61,017 nt of DNA, from the IMG/VR virus record IMGVR_UViG_3300047586_000114, positions 1 to 61,017 of that record; one strand, written 5' to 3'. Below the pieces are notes generated by a model. The model was not told the DNA's origin. It made no database searches and saw nothing but the letters and a program-made list of their open reading frames with translations. How positions within the stretch are numbered: the stretch's first letter is position 1; every line of letters starts with the position of its first letter. This document shows, piece after piece, positions 38,048 to 52,185 of this stretch. Origin of the DNA: a virus. The position numbers were made by a program, and so were the translations under genes.

Positions 38048-41000
38048 TTAATACGTTACAGTACATCCAAAATCTTTTAAACCTTGACCTAGAAATTCTG
38101 ATAAACCTTCTATTTGACGAATAGCAATCGAAGTTAATCCATTGTTATTAGATACGTTAATAGCACAACTATTTGTTCCAAGATGATATCTCATTAACCA
38201 CATTTCATCAATATAAATTGACATTTGTGTTTGAGAAATATTATTATAGCTTAAATCGATATAATTTAAATTCAACAAATATAAAAAACTACCGATATCA
38301 GTTATCTGATTGTGATTTATATCTAAATGAACCAGACTATTACAATATGAAATATCTCCGATTGTCGTTAAACTATTATTTGAAACAACATATCTTTGAA
38401 TATAAGGAAAATAATCAATTGTTGTAGTTACTATTGCATTAATATTATCTGAGTCTAATGAAATTAATTTATTTTGTTTATCTAAAAAGTTAGCATATAT
38501 AAAATTACAACCACTAATATTTAAAGTTTCTAACAATGTTAATAATTCTATATGATATATTTGCTTGATTTTTGTGTTATTTGAAATATTTAAATTTGTA
38601 AGTTTTGGATAATATTTAACATCAATAAAATATTCATGTAAAGAACTATTATTGTCTGATAAATCAAGAACTTGTAATTCATTTAAATAAAATTCTGAAA
38701 GAGATTTGATTTTATTATTTGATAGATGAAGTTCAGTTAAAGTATCAAAATCATCACATAAAAGTTTAACTGTTTTTTCTCCACTTGTTGCATAAGTATG
38801 AGAAACATAATCGTTTGGTTCTAAAGTTCCATCTCCTAAATTCCACAAAACATTAGAAGTATGAACCGTTAATGGACTAAATACATCAGGTATCGTAGAT
38901 AAAGTTATGAAAGAAAATACGTTAGTACTAAAATCATAACTAATGGTACAACCTCCGCCCTTTATTGGTGTAGCAGAATAAGCTCCTAAACCTTCAATTT
39001 TTTCTACAGCTGTTGCAGATGATAACCCACAATTACCTTCTAATTTAATATCACAGGAGTTAGCTTTTAAATAAACTTCATTTGACCATAATTGATCTAC
39101 AAAGTTTGATAAAGTAGATTCATTGAATTCATTATTTTCTAAATAACAATTTGTTAAATTCGTTAAATTAATTAAACTTCCGACATCTGTTAAATTATTA
39201 TAAGAAATATCTAAAAATAATAAATCGGTAAGATTATCAATTTGACCGATATTTGTTAACTCATTATTTTTAAGATATAATCTTTGAAGATTAGTTAAGG
39301 ATGTAACTATCCCAATATTTAAAAATCCATTGTTTAACAATTCTAAACTTTGTAATTGTGTTAAATTAGTAACTAAACCGATATCTGTTAACGCATTATT
39401 ATTTAGATTTAGTGTTACAAGATTTATCATATTAGCGACATTACCTAATTGAACAAGATCATTATCTTCTAAATTTAAATATATTAAATCAGTAAGTCCA
39501 GAAATTATACCAATATATGTTATGGTATTATTGCTCAAATTTAAATAAGTTAAATCACTTAATCTTGCTATTTCTGAATACGGACCAGTTAATTGATTTG
39601 AACTTAAATCAAGATGTGTTAAATTTGTAAGAAGTTCTAAATGTCTCATTTCAGTTAATTGATCATTAGAAGCATTTAATTCAGTAATATATGTGTAATC
39701 ATCTATAACACTAAACATAACTGCTTTTTGAACAGTTGAAGTATATCCCGCATAATCAATGTTATTTACATTAGATATAATAGTTCCGTTTCCCATATCC
39801 CAAGAAACATTAGTTCCAGATTTTACAACAGAAGCTATAAAATGAGGAGTGCCGTTATTAATTGTAATAAATTGCAAATCAGTATGAATAGTTATGATAA
39901 AATCTCCATCATATACATCTCCTACATCAAATTTATTTGGTTCAACTAAAGATGTATAATGATAGGGATTAACTGTATCATAATTTCTTTGATCACTATC
40001 TCTAATATTCTCTCTTCTATCCCATTCTGCTTTTTGAAAAAATTTACCATTTAAGATATCTTGACCATTTAAAGAATCTTGCAATTTATCATCTAATCCA
40101 TAAATAGTTTCATAAGATAATAATCTAGCTCTTTTTGGTTTAATATCACCAATCAATAATTTAATTTTTTCAAATGATCCCAACAAAAGTTCTCTAAAAT
40201 TAGGAGCTGTAGTTTGAATATAAGTATGAATAAATACATTTAGATATGTAACAAGTGTTTCCGCTAAATTAAAATATACTTCATCGTTACCATTGGTATA
40301 TTCTATCATTAATGGAACTAAAGTATTATTAACGGCATAATTTAATTTCCATAAACCATTTTCATCATATTCCCATTGTTCATCTATAGTTCCAGTTATA
40401 GCTATACATTTATAAACTACGGGTAAATAACCTCTAGTTGAATCATTATTAACTAATTTTAAACTATCTAAAGTATTACCTATTGTAGGTAAATTATAAT
40501 AATCTTCAACCGACACCGGCATTGCTGTTCCATTTAATATTCTTTCTGGATCTTTTCTATTTCTTGCATAGTTTTTAGCAAATTTCCAAGTCCACATCTG
40601 CATATATTTATTATGTAAAAGTTTTTGATACAATCTGTGCCATTCTTCATAAATATCATTATCTACTTGTAATTCCCATTGTTCATCTATAGTTCCTGTT
40701 GTCGCAATGCATTTATAAATTCTTGGATTATATTGGGTTCTATCCACCCAATTAAATCTAACATCTGCAATAAAATCTGTTTCATCTTTAATAATTAAAG
40801 CAAGATCACCTATTTTATAATTAACACCATCTAAAGGTAAATGTGCTTTACTTTTTTTAATAGTGTAAATATCAGTTAGTATTTTAAATCTTTTAAATAA
40901 AACATCCCATTCTTGTTTAATTATAGATTCATACGTATCAGTATTATATTGATCAAAAACATTTTGTATAGTACATTCTCCGCTTATATTTCCGACATCT

Positions 41001-43009
41001 ATACAATTAACAGTAAAAGAAGTATCATCCACAACAGCTAATACAATATATCTTCCACTTGGTAATGTATCTAAATCTGTACTATCAGAAATAATTATTT
41101 CTTGACCTTTAACATATCCATGATTTTCAAAAAAGACTGTTATTAGTGCTATATTTTCATTTCTCGTCCAATAAGATAATGCATAAGTTGGACCACAAAA
41201 ATGACATTGATCTAAATAATAAGACCCCTGTGTGGGTATAATATAAGGATAATAATCTATGTCATGTATAGTTCCGTTTAAAACATATTTCCAGGATACA
41301 GTATTGTCTGTTGTTACATCATCAATATGAGAATGTATCCAACTTGGTTCTGTTGAATTTGAAGTTCCAGTTACTGTACATTTAAAATAACATGTAGCAT
41401 GATCTTCCGATGTTGGTTTTACTAAATCTCCAATACTATAACTATGATTAGGTAACCAATTACTTGGTATAGAATAGGGACCAGTTATATTATCATAATC
41501 AATATTTAACAATTCCCCTTGTCCAATATACTCTAAATCATAAAAAATTTCTACATCTTTTGGATAAAATTTAAATGATGGATGATGATGTTCTGAATCA
41601 CCAAACATTAAACTGACAAATAAATTAAGACCATGACTAGTAGTTTGAAATTTTGTCCAGTTGACTAATTTTTCATATCTAAATGGATAAACACCAATAA
41701 AAGGTGCTGTACTGTATGAATCTGAAATTATACCATATTCTGTAGATAAAAAATTATTAAGTTCTGTAAACTTTACATAATCATTATATCTATTGTATGC
41801 ATAATTTAAACATAAATATAATTCAAAAACTGACATTTTTTGGTTAAGTTCTTCAACGTAAATAATTCTATCGTTATTAATATACTCTGTATTTTGCTGA
41901 ATATATTTAACAAAAAGATCATTACACAATCTATTTAAAAACATAGCAGATTGAAGAACAGATGAAAAATGCAAATAATATGCAATGGAAAAATAAGGCA
42001 TTATTGATGGTAGAGATAAATTAGTTAATGTATCATCAACTGCTTTTATTTGTGCTTCTCTATAATACCAATGAGGTCCTGCCATTTTTTCAAATTCTGC
42101 ATAACTTAAATATCTATTAGTCCTTAACATTGATTCTAAATTAGCATTTTCTGATTTAGTAACTCTTTGACCTTGGAGATATAAATCTCCATCAACGGTA
42201 CCTCTTTGTCTATATAACCACCATTCGTATATTGAAATATCATCCAAACCTAAAAATTTTAAAATTTCAACTATTGAATCAGGAGATCCTTTTTTCTTAT
42301 ATATGTCTACTAAAGATAAAAGCAATCCAGCTTTTAAATCTTTTTCATTTATTGCATATATTTTACTAAAACCAAAACTTTTATTGGCAGTATCTAAAAG
42401 TTCTTTTGTCATTAAAAATGGATTTGTAGTTTGTTTTTGAAGTTTCAATAATGTTCTAAATGTTGAATACCAATCAATAATCATTCTTCTTAACTTATTA
42501 TAATCATCAGTATTGAATGCTGGTTGATCCATTACATTTTTGAAAAAACCAGTGACTTCATTTCTTGTTGTAATAGCTAAATTAATTATTGAAATATCTA
42601 TATCAGATACATAATCCGCCATTGTATTATCTTGTACAATGTAAACTGGGGGACTTGTCCATGTAATTATCGGTTTACTTGCTTCTAGTTCAGCTATATA
42701 TAAAGTCATTTCATTTGCAATAGATGGAATATCATAAAGATCTTTTATTCGATTATAAAGAATTTCTGAAGATTGTTCAACGAAATATTTTAATCTCTCT
42801 AATGTATAAAGTTGTTGGTTTAAAATATTTAAATATGACTGAACCATTTCTATACTATTATTAATGACATCTATTTGACGCTGTAATATGGTATTTCTTT
42901 CCATTTCATCAGAATTTAAATTATCATTTTGAACTTGATACAGAGATGTTTTATTTGGATGCTCGTTTAAATACTGAAAAATTTTGAAAAAATCTTGTTG
43001 TGAGTACAT
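38048..43009 (-). CDS. giant baseplate-linked adhesin-like protein with CBM-like, PKD and LRR modules
   Basis: 1653 residues. The N-terminal 350 residues are helical and probably dock on the baseplate. Around residues 500-870 there are several W-x-Y-x-G-D-V and Y-K/F-C modules (YSIGDLVKPTSEDHATCYFK; two copies of GTIDEQWE) that resemble carbohydrate-binding CBM5/12 folds. A PKD-like domain near 1050 precedes about ten leucine-rich repeats (L-LNLSNN, L-LDLSSN) at roughly 1110-1330. A second PKD (WNLGDGT, near 1388) precedes a second LRR block to the end. Both LRR blocks end with a similar GLxx-GCT-Y motif. It likely binds host surface structures; this is inferred from the modules. Confidence 0.7.
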   Translation of the reverse strand: MYSQQDFFKIFQYLNEHPNKTSLYQVQNDNLNSDEMERNTILQRQIDVINNSIEMVQSYLNILNQQLYTLERLKYFVEQSSEILYNRIKDLYDIPSIANEMTLYIAELEASKPIITWTSPPVYIVQDNTMADYVSDIDISIINLAITTRNEVTGFFKNVMDQPAFNTDDYNKLRRMIIDWYSTFRTLLKLQKQTTNPFLMTKELLDTANKSFGFSKIYAINEKDLKAGLLLSLVDIYKKKGSPDSIVEILKFLGLDDISIYEWWLYRQRGTVDGDLYLQGQRVTKSENANLESMLRTNRYLSYAEFEKMAGPHWYYREAQIKAVDDTLTNLSLPSIMPYFSIAYYLHFSSVLQSAMFLNRLCNDLFVKYIQQNTEYINNDRIIYVEELNQKMSVFELYLCLNYAYNRYNDYVKFTELNNFLSTEYGIISDSYSTAPFIGVYPFRYEKLVNWTKFQTTSHGLNLFVSLMFGDSEHHHPSFKFYPKDVEIFYDLEYIGQGELLNIDYDNITGPYSIPSNWLPNHSYSIGDLVKPTSEDHATCYFKCTVTGTSNSTEPSWIHSHIDDVTTDNTVSWKYVLNGTIHDIDYYPYIIPTQGSYYLDQCHFCGPTYALSYWTRNENIALITVFFENHGYVKGQEIIISDSTDLDTLPSGRYIVLAVVDDTSFTVNCIDVGNISGECTIQNVFDQYNTDTYESIIKQEWDVLFKRFKILTDIYTIKKSKAHLPLDGVNYKIGDLALIIKDETDFIADVRFNWVDRTQYNPRIYKCIATTGTIDEQWELQVDNDIYEEWHRLYQKLLHNKYMQMWTWKFAKNYARNRKDPERILNGTAMPVSVEDYYNLPTIGNTLDSLKLVNNDSTRGYLPVVYKCIAITGTIDEQWEYDENGLWKLNYAVNNTLVPLMIEYTNGNDEVYFNLAETLVTYLNVFIHTYIQTTAPNFRELLLGSFEKIKLLIGDIKPKRARLLSYETIYGLDDKLQDSLNGQDILNGKFFQKAEWDRRENIRDSDQRNYDTVNPYHYTSLVEPNKFDVGDVYDGDFIITIHTDLQFITINNGTPHFIASVVKSGTNVSWDMGNGTIISNVNNIDYAGYTSTVQKAVMFSVIDDYTYITELNASNDQLTEMRHLELLTNLTHLDLSSNQLTGPYSEIARLSDLTYLNLSNNTITYIGIISGLTDLIYLNLEDNDLVQLGNVANMINLVTLNLNNNALTDIGLVTNLTQLQSLELLNNGFLNIGIVTSLTNLQRLYLKNNELTNIGQIDNLTDLLFLDISYNNLTDVGSLINLTNLTNCYLENNEFNESTLSNFVDQLWSNEVYLKANSCDIKLEGNCGLSSATAVEKIEGLGAYSATPIKGGGCTISYDFSTNVFSFITLSTIPDVFSPLTVHTSNVLWNLGDGTLEPNDYVSHTYATSGEKTVKLLCDDFDTLTELHLSNNKIKSLSEFYLNELQVLDLSDNNSSLHEYFIDVKYYPKLTNLNISNNTKIKQIYHIELLTLLETLNISGCNFIYANFLDKQNKLISLDSDNINAIVTTTIDYFPYIQRYVVSNNSLTTIGDISYCNSLVHLDINHNQITDIGSFLYLLNLNYIDLSYNNISQTQMSIYIDEMWLMRYHLGTNSCAINVSNNNGLTSIAIRQIEGLSEFLGQGLKDFGCTVTY

Positions 43010-51544: not shown

Positions 51545-51587
51545 AGGAAATAATTTTCATGCCCGGATGGCGTAATGGCAGCCGCAT

Positions 51588-51800
51588 CAAATTTTTTCTG
51601 GTGCGAGTATATGGTAACATATACAAAGATCGAGGCTAAATCGGTGAATCTCCTAACAGGTAAAGCTGAGGACAACGCCGTGCTAAGTGGGAAAATAAAT
51701 ATTCCCTAAATGTGTAGAGAAGCATATACCTCGCTCCTAACAGGTAAAGCTGAGGATGAAGACGTGCTCCATGCCATATAGTAATATATGGAAATAAGTG
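51588..51800 (+). other. group I intron 1 of tRNA-Leu (anticodon stem, after position 27)
   Basis: 213 nt, ending in G. P1 pairs exon GCAT (51584-51587) with GTGC (51601-51604), giving the required U-G at the 5' splice site. P10 pairs exon 2 CAGA with TCTG (51597-51600), directly next to P1. P2 GTATAT/ATATAC; P3 CGAGG (51631-51635) with CCTCG (51729-51733); P6 GGGAA/TTCCC; P7 AGCA (51721-51724) with TGCT (51765-51768); P9 CCATATA/TATATGG. The core GACAACGCCGTGCTAAG is Q-like. No ORF inside. Confidence 0.8.
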
Positions 51801-51807
51801 CAGACTT

Positions 51808-52024
51808 AATTAATTTGAGTGCTCTAAGGGAAACCTTAGAAGTAGAAGTTCCCAAACTCGGTGAACGGTTTTAAATCCCAACGCCGAGCCAACCTCAATT
51901 AAAATTGAGAAGTGTGTAGAGAGCAGACGGGAACTACCTAAGTATCAAGAAATGATATATGGTAATGGCGTGCTCCAGACCACGAACATCTTTCTTAGAT
52001 GGCGTTGAAAAACGAAGTGGTAAG
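51808..52024 (+). other. group I intron 2 of tRNA-Leu (within the UAA anticodon)
   Basis: 217 nt, ending in G, between U34 and A35, the same site as the cyanobacterial/plastid tRNA-Leu intron. P1 pairs ACTT (51804-51807) with GAGT (51817-51820), U-G at the splice site; P10 AAA with TTT (51814-51816). P2 CTAAGG/CCTTAG; P3 AGTTCCC (51847-51853) with GGGAACT (51929-51935); P6 CTCAATT/AATTGAG; P7 GAGCA (51921-51925) with TGCTC (51971-51975); P9 CCAC/GTGG. Core CAACGCCGAGCCAA matches Azoarcus-type IC3 introns. No ORF inside. Confidence 0.88.
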
Positions 52025-52110
52025 AAAATCTGATATCCGCAAGGGTGTGGGGGTTCAAGTCCCCCTCCGGGCATATCCTTTTTATCTAACAGGAAATTTT
52101 TTATTTTAAT

Positions 52111-52185
52111 GGGACAGTAATTCAACGGTCAGAATAGGTGACTCATAATCACTCAACGATGTTTCGACTACATCCTGTCCCACCA
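52111..52185 (+). tRNA. tRNA with CAU anticodon (Met or lysidine-type Ile)
   Basis: 75 nt including encoded CCA (52183-52185). Acceptor GGGACAG/CTGTCCC, D stem ATTC/GAAT, anticodon stem GGTGA/TCACT with loop CTCATAA (CAT), T stem GATGT/ACATC with TTCGACT loop. Unlike the tRNA-Leu 37 nt upstream, its CCA is encoded. Sequence alone does not tell elongator Met from Ile2. Confidence 0.93.

Follow-up and report, generated by a model that had tools for sequence, protein, structure and literature searches.

The cyanobacterial tRNA-Leu(UAA) intron is comparable to the second of the two introns described here, a comparison that rests in part on PMC4033280. Bacterial tRNA group I introns have been described as lying in the anticodon region, and tRNAs with several introns as archaeal and spliced by an enzyme (PMC4033280). 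Archaeal tRNAs with two or three introns resemble the present gene in having several introns per tRNA (PMC4033280), but they are cut by a protein splicing endonuclease whereas the introns considered here belong to the group I ribozymes. A review from 2014 places all phage introns then known in protein genes (PMC3984707). The phage genes phiNIT1 rNDPL, SIOphi and Twort orf142 are similar in layout, with at least two group I introns flanking an exon that is small or skipped (PMC11878797), and for SIOphi and Twort the skipping of an exon between such introns is documented (PMC11878797). Those genes encode proteins and skipping leaves an mRNA; at the present gene, we infer, it would delete the anticodon from the RNA.

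In the Azoarcus group I structure 1U6B the receptor of the GAAA loop at 24-27 is 146-151/160-164 and that of the loop at 189-192 is 60-65/80-84 (tabulated in PMC3494683), contacts which we take to be L2-P8 and L9-P5. In the Twort structure 1Y0Q the loops are 22-25 and 205-208 (PMC3494683).

The window, by which we mean the whole stretch of DNA analysed (61,017 nucleotides), is a 61-kb linear virus record of 28.6% G+C. It carries a phage tRNA-Leu(UAA) gene that is very likely interrupted by two autonomous group I introns free of endonuclease genes; there are no transcript data, and splicing, its order and the function of the product are inferred. The gene and its neighbour are laid out as follows.

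51561 to 51587, plus strand: exon 1 of tRNA-Leu(UAA), comprising the acceptor 5′ strand, D arm, nt 26 and U27, the first anticodon-stem nucleotide
51588 to 51800, plus strand: intron 1, assigned to group I, 213 nt, in the anticodon stem between tRNA nt 27 and 28
51801 to 51807, plus strand: micro-exon CAGACTT, tRNA nt 28-34, comprising the anticodon stem 5′ strand, C32, U33 and U34
51808 to 52024, plus strand: intron 2, assigned to the tRNA-Leu(UAA) type of group I (IC3-like), 217 nt, between nt 34 and 35
52025 to 52073, plus strand: exon 3, comprising A35, A36, the rest of the loop, the anticodon-stem 3′ strand TCTGA (52029-52033), long variable arm, T arm, acceptor 3′ strand and discriminator A
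52111 to 52185, plus strand: neighbouring intact tRNA-Met(cat), on the same strand as the tRNA-Leu gene

The joined exons (27+7+49 = 83 nt) are recognized by ARAGORN as a perfect tRNA-Leu(taa) with a 7-bp acceptor stem, 5-bp anticodon stem, UAA anticodon and long variable arm. The unedited sequence, with introns allowed, gives solely an implausible 'tRNA-Stop(tta)' with a mismatched stem. Taking out intron 1 alone leaves a tRNA-Leu(taa) with a 217-nt intron at gactt/aaaat, and fusing exon 1 directly to exon 3 leaves nothing that ARAGORN identifies as tRNA-Leu. The micro-exon was sought under tRNA and group I rules. The anticodon stem had to form Watson-Crick pairs with the fixed TCTGA, position 33 had to be U and position 37 a purine, the exon upstream of each intron had to close with U, and every intron had to finish with G and span at least about 100 nt. 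A single solution remains, CAGACTT at 51801. Any solution at all appears in only 9 of 2000 dinucleotide-preserving shuffles (0.45%) of the intervening DNA, and the figure is conservative since both ribozyme cores are left out of account. The dinucleotide CA occurs twice, at 51588-51589 and 51801-51802, so that by sequence alone the boundary of intron 1 is ambiguous by up to 2 nt; the U/G rules of group I introns select 51588/51800.

A preliminary description of the locus had proposed the same exon, intron and micro-exon coordinates, which hold exactly apart from this ambiguity. It had also claimed that a complete tRNA-Leu needs removal of both introns and that the perfect anticodon stem exists only with both gone. 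The first claim is borne out by ARAGORN on the joined exons, the second by the single solution that tRNA and group I rules together permit.

The product is inferred to read UUA, which accounts for 606 of 981 leucine codons (62%) in the sampled open reading frames of the window and is the commonest leucine codon there. Encoded CCA is absent from both tRNA genes, tRNA-Leu and tRNA-Met (window 51561-52185), and the phage therefore depends on a CCA-adding enzyme.

The elements of intron 2 are listed first.

51804 to 51820, plus strand: P1, exon ACUU (51804-51807) with GAGU (51817-51820)
51814 to 51816 with 52025 to 52027, plus strand: P10, in which UUU can pair with AAA, only three pairs
51824 to 51839, plus strand: P2 hairpin with a GAAA loop
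51847 to 51935, plus strand: P3, AGUUCCC with GGGAACU, six of the seven pairs covarying across relatives
51857 to 51888, plus strand: P4, CUCGGUG with CGCCGAG, enclosing P5
51919 to 51976, plus strand: P7, GAGAGCA (51919-51925) with UGCUCC (51971-51976)
51937 to 51962, plus strand: P8, CCUAAG with UAUGG, the classical 11-nt GAAA-loop receptor sequence
51980 to 52020, plus strand: P9, CCAC with GUGG, with side hairpins

Intron 2 is inserted at CTT/AAAA, between nucleotides 34 and 35, which is the standard tRNA-Leu(UAA) intron site. It shares with the IC3 introns of tRNA-Leu(UAA) the gene, the anticodon site, the P1-P9 plan, and the combination of a GAAA L2 with an 11-nt receptor in P8. Covariation was assessed in an alignment with seven relatives against the structure given above, with P7 treated as a pseudoknot. 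Ninety percent of cells are paired and 29 of 54 pairs have changed on both sides, values reached by none of 500 shuffles; when the partner strand is slid as a control the pairing falls to 29-45%. P7 is paired in every relative counted (100%), with three pairs changed on both sides, and the window's own P7 carries GAGCA/UGCUC in place of GACUA/UAGUC, a change in both strands. An unconstrained fold (z = -4.65) recovers most helices of P1-P6, P8 and P9. No open reading frame of at least 50 amino acids is listed on the plus strand of intron 2, and so there is no endonuclease reading frame. The architecture and homology, and for intron 2 also the covariation, are shown, and there is little doubt that intron 2 represents the standard tRNA-Leu(UAA) group I intron at its standard site.

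Intron 1, which starts after U27 and ends with G51800, comprises these elements.

51583 to 51605, plus strand: P1, exon CGCAU (51583-51587) with GUGCG (51601-51605), with a U-G pair at the 5′ splice site
51597 to 51600 with 51801 to 51804, plus strand: P10, UCUG with CAGA
51607 to 51624, plus strand: P2 hairpin with a GUAA (GNRA) loop
51631 to 51733, plus strand: P3, CGAGG (51631-51635) with CCUCG (51729-51733)
51642 to 51680, plus strand: P4, CGGUG (51642-51646) with CGCCG (51676-51680), enclosing P5
51651 to 51672, plus strand: P5 hairpin, UCCUAAC...GAGGA, with a receptor-like internal loop, identical to the P8 hairpin
51717 to 51770, plus strand: P7, GAGAAGCA (51717-51724) with UGCUCC (51765-51770), with one extra bulged A
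51735 to 51756, plus strand: P8 hairpin, the same 22 nt as P5
51774 to 51791, plus strand: P9 hairpin with a GUAA loop

P2, P3, P4, P6a, P7, P8 and P9 are present in each of the two introns, and both meet the group I rules: the U before the 5′ splice site is paired with G, the last base is G and P10 forms with the 3′ exon. The helices, U-G pairs, terminal G and P10 claimed earlier for each intron hold, the one refinement being the extra bulged A in P7 of intron 1. An unconstrained fold of intron 1 (z = -2.94) recovers P1, P2, P3, P4, P5, P6a, P8 and P9. As in intron 2, the list of open reading frames holds none of at least 50 amino acids on the plus strand, hence no endonuclease reading frame.

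Intron 1 has two GNRA loops, on P2 and P9, and two receptor-like hairpins, P5 and P8, in a layout like that of the Twort structure. The hairpins are identical and for that reason the intron contains a 22-nt direct repeat. The L2-P8 and L9-P5 plan of Azoarcus and Twort is matched here by the GNRA loops with P5 and P8, and in intron 2 by the GAAA loop with the 11-nt receptor. Which loop of intron 1 would dock on which hairpin can be assigned only tentatively, by analogy. The closest DNA matches to intron 1 lie in or beside introns of phage genes for terminase (Twort), DNA polymerase III (EF1) and nrdD (phiKSUM), with the caution that the BLAST E-values are weak. Such Twort-type introns in terminase, DNA polymerase and nrdD genes share with intron 1 the P4/P5 region and its CCUAAC...GAGG-type P5. 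They interrupt protein genes, some beside endonuclease genes, whereas intron 1 is in a tRNA and contains no reading frame. Its site, in the anticodon stem outside the anticodon loop, also differs from that of the tRNA-Leu(UAA) IC3 introns, to which it is at most 59% identical over 152 core columns.

Could intron 1 be a recent copy of intron 2? We rejected this, as the two are 55% identical over the same 152 core columns, no higher than the values of up to 59% with other introns. A pattern search on the P4 region of intron 1 was likewise discarded, the sole match being an unrelated coding sequence. The covariation analysis supports intron 2 alone, intron 1 having no aligned family of its own. 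By its helices and by the covariance models described below intron 1 is a group I intron, very probably a distant relative of intron 2; that it splices is inferred.

We note that the 3′ strand of P7, CGTGCTCCA, is common to both introns (51763-51771 and 51969-51977), where the aligned tRNA-Leu relatives have AGTCC (most phage ones TATAGTCCA). AACGCCG in P4 is likewise common to both. As the introns are otherwise too dissimilar for recent copying, these shared segments may stem from gene conversion or co-adaptation.

The presence of two cores was addressed with covariance models. Rfam RF00028, in a search restricted to the tRNA-Leu region, matches the two stretches separately, scoring 29.1 bits over 51798-52017 and 16.6 bits over 51579-51791. 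Neither score reaches the curated gathering cut-off of 50 bits, which is a library cut-off and no biological feature; the single-intron tRNA-Leu relatives L003 and L006 likewise give no RF00028 match at E ≤ 0.1. The outcome that would have spoken against two introns, a match to only one core, was not seen. A second model, R1, was built from 26 aligned single-intron phage tRNA-Leu(UAA) loci with the window left out. Its score is 129 bits for intron 2 (51817-52024; E = 6.2e-28) and 27.3 bits for intron 1 (51601-51795; E = 1.4e-4 over 98.7 kb), and the rest of the 61-kb window gives nothing at E ≤ 1. An unfiltered search of 801 bases around the locus returns E-values of 5e-30 for intron 2 and 1.1e-6 for intron 1, and the next score is -0.2 bits. 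We caution that R1 also splits the long single intron of L176 into two matches; these were checked as a candidate pair of introns and belong to one. Two matches alone are therefore no proof, and we note that each R1 match at the window locus contains the full helix set.

That behaviour bears on the simplest alternative, in which 51588-52024 is one long group I intron with a different exon boundary. In its favour, tRNA-Leu introns of 500-600 nt are known in relatives and R1 can split one of them in two. Against it, no tRNA-Leu results when the whole block is removed, and a matched anticodon stem can be built only with the micro-exon; moreover each half has its own P1-P9 set, including both strands of P7. 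This alternative, which the preliminary description had named as a possible refutation, fails and is very unlikely. A nested twintron, with one intron inside the other and the 7 nt being intron sequence, can be all but dismissed. The introns are close together and have the 3′ strand of P7 in common, but tRNA sequence flanks each of them, the 7 nt correspond exactly to nt 28-34 of the tRNA, and each intron is complete without the other.

Decay of the gene deserves more attention. The extra bulged A in P7 and a 4-nt J7/3 are oddities of intron 1, on account of which it could be slow or inactive. On the decay hypothesis intron 1 is a defective insertion and production of the tRNA has ceased. In its support the bulged A, the low Rfam score of 16.6 bits and the absence of expression data may be cited. 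Against this, intron 1 retains all its other helices, obeys the U/G splice-site rules and has kept P10, its GNRA loops and its receptor hairpins; the exons still have each base that a perfect cloverleaf requires; and the tRNA would serve the leucine codon most used in the sampled reading frames. We consider decay unlikely. Two tandem introns, the interpretation put forward in the preliminary description, is supported as the only reading that fits.

How exceptional is the arrangement? In 43 distinct tRNA-Leu loci of this type from viruses and phages, the window included, the 5′ half lies directly upstream of GACTT or is cut by a contig end, the window being the exception; 17 distinct bacterial loci show the same picture as the other viral ones. 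The relatives, bacterial ones included, therefore have an uninterrupted 5′ half where that of the window is cut again. These collections are samples and the counts lower bounds. Of 59 candidates, ARAGORN completed 49 as single-intron tRNA-Leu(taa). Most of those left over, the window aside, are complete tRNAs in which the program misplaces the intron by 1-2 bases; the others are a contig end, a chance match to the pattern and a tRNA-Leu(UAG). A looser tRNA-Leu pattern had returned mostly chance matches and was tightened, and a pattern aimed at other two-intron genes found none.

The survey provided several minor observations. At L176:4073-4680 a tRNA-Leu with anticodon UAG is interrupted at the same position, apparently by an intron of this type, about 540 nt in length. 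Five loci (L020, L023, L200, L202 and L252) give a spliced tRNA(UAA) of about 74 nt that seems to lack the long variable arm a tRNA-Leu should have. On the reverse strand of L071, within a tRNA-Leu intron, the peripheral part contains a tRNA-like T-arm sequence (GTTGGGTTCGATTCCCAAC), at which ARAGORN calls no tRNA. In L002, at about 1422-2207 (595-kb phage LR756511), the tRNA-Leu(UAA) intron contains an inserted reading frame resembling an HNH homing endonuclease, which is absent from most relatives.

An independent two-intron version occurs in the Lak megaphages B1-B9 and C1 (ten GenBank genomes), where tRNA-Leu(UAA) carries two group I introns. Prevotella phage Lak-B1 surfaced in a BLAST search, with the gene at L004:1161-1903 in the order TGGTCCATTGGTGGAATTGGT / 309 nt / AGACACGAGGGACTT / 348 nt / AAAATCCC..., and the joined exons are a perfect tRNA-Leu(taa) by ARAGORN. 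RF00028 matches the first Lak intron at 40.5 bits and R1 matches the two at 40 and 27 bits, the second over part of its length only. Within the gene B1-B9 hardly differ from one another, and C1 shows 95% identity. Since IMG/VR does not contain the exact Lak micro-exon pattern, the case rests on the ten GenBank genomes. The two genes are alike in having two tandem group I introns in one tRNA-Leu(UAA), the second at the same anticodon site. They differ in that the first Lak intron is in the D-loop, with a middle exon of 15 nt and introns of 309 and 348 nt, whereas the window has its first intron at nt 27/28, a 7-nt exon and introns of 213 and 217 nt. Because the first Lak intron lies in the D-loop, separate origins of the two doubles are most likely. 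Devoto et al. 2019 mention 'enigmatic' tRNA introns in Lak phages and for the baboon genomes list one, in tRNA-Tyr (PMC6784885); tRNA-Leu is not named in the text of that paper, nor do the Lak records carry any annotation of the gene. The two-intron tRNA-Leu(UAA) is probably unreported as such in the Lak literature searched.

The Lak genes also bear on the suggestion that the window's gene is an assembly chimera, an unrelated intron having been joined to a one-intron tRNA gene. The window is a single metagenomic record with no second copy found, and intron 1 has its 22-nt internal repeat. A chimeric join would not, however, end at the very base that restores the anticodon stem and provides P1 and P10 pairing with the exons, and a gene of the same kind is present in ten Lak genomes. 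An artefact of this sort is all but excluded.

In the open PMC literature searched we found no tRNA with two group I introns and no group I intron in a tRNA anticodon stem, with the caveat that absence is no proof. The earlier supposition that a tRNA with two such introns is unique holds only in part, Lak B1-B9 and C1 being a second case. The number of introns and the intron site are likely new; the intron class and the host gene are known. Two ribozymes per tRNA in two distant phages indicate that a tRNA can take up more than one group I intron, and the different sites of the first introns indicate that such introns can use positions outside the anticodon loop. The 7-nt exon lends itself to testing how exon bases are shared between two ribozymes and how the skipping known from other phage genes is avoided. 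With default settings ARAGORN and Rfam both overlook the window's tRNA-Leu gene, and tRNA inventories of large phages are as a consequence probably incomplete.

We now consider how the transcript might mature. From family membership, each intron would fold its own core and remove itself by two guanosine-initiated transesterifications. The CAGA of the micro-exon may pair in turn with UCUG of the intron 1 guide, as P10, and with UCUG of exon 3 in the anticodon stem, while ACUU would pair with the intron 2 guide, as P1. This double role, with a one-base overlap, had been proposed before and holds, the overlap being A51804. In the usual order intron 1 would leave first and then intron 2, joining 27+7+49 nt into a UUA-reading tRNA. 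The order is inferred because intron 1 is transcribed first and because its loss completes the anticodon stem, which is reportedly needed for splicing: Anabaena pre-tRNA splicing requires exon pairing in the anticodon stem, according to the title of a study cited in PMC3984707. The P10 partner would be used while intron 1 leaves and the others afterwards, and so the intron-1-first order would avoid conflict. Four of the five anticodon-stem pairs can already form before intron 1 leaves, for which reason the order may be preferred rather than strict. The earlier proposal that splicing order matters remains plausible, by inference. A bolder reading is a two-ribozyme relay, in which CAGA switches partner, intron 1 must leave before intron 2 splices well, and splicing order or exon skipping sets the amount of UUA-reading tRNA; taken as a whole this is no more than a possibility.

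No close relatives were identified through the neighbouring ATPase or the terminase, the 5′ end of intron 1 has no exact match in IMG/VR, and no relative of the phage with or without intron 1 was found. In the absence of such a relative the insertion of intron 1 cannot be demonstrated by an empty site of the same gene. The window encodes a tail sheath, a clamp loader and a terminase that distantly resembles T4-type phage terminases, being about 27% identical to its matches in named phages, and the host of the gene is likely a tailed phage with a T4-like terminase. We also observe, at 38048-43009, a 1653-aa protein to which Pfam assigns a tail protein I domain, PKD-like domains and leucine-rich repeats, a mixture unusual for a phage tail protein.
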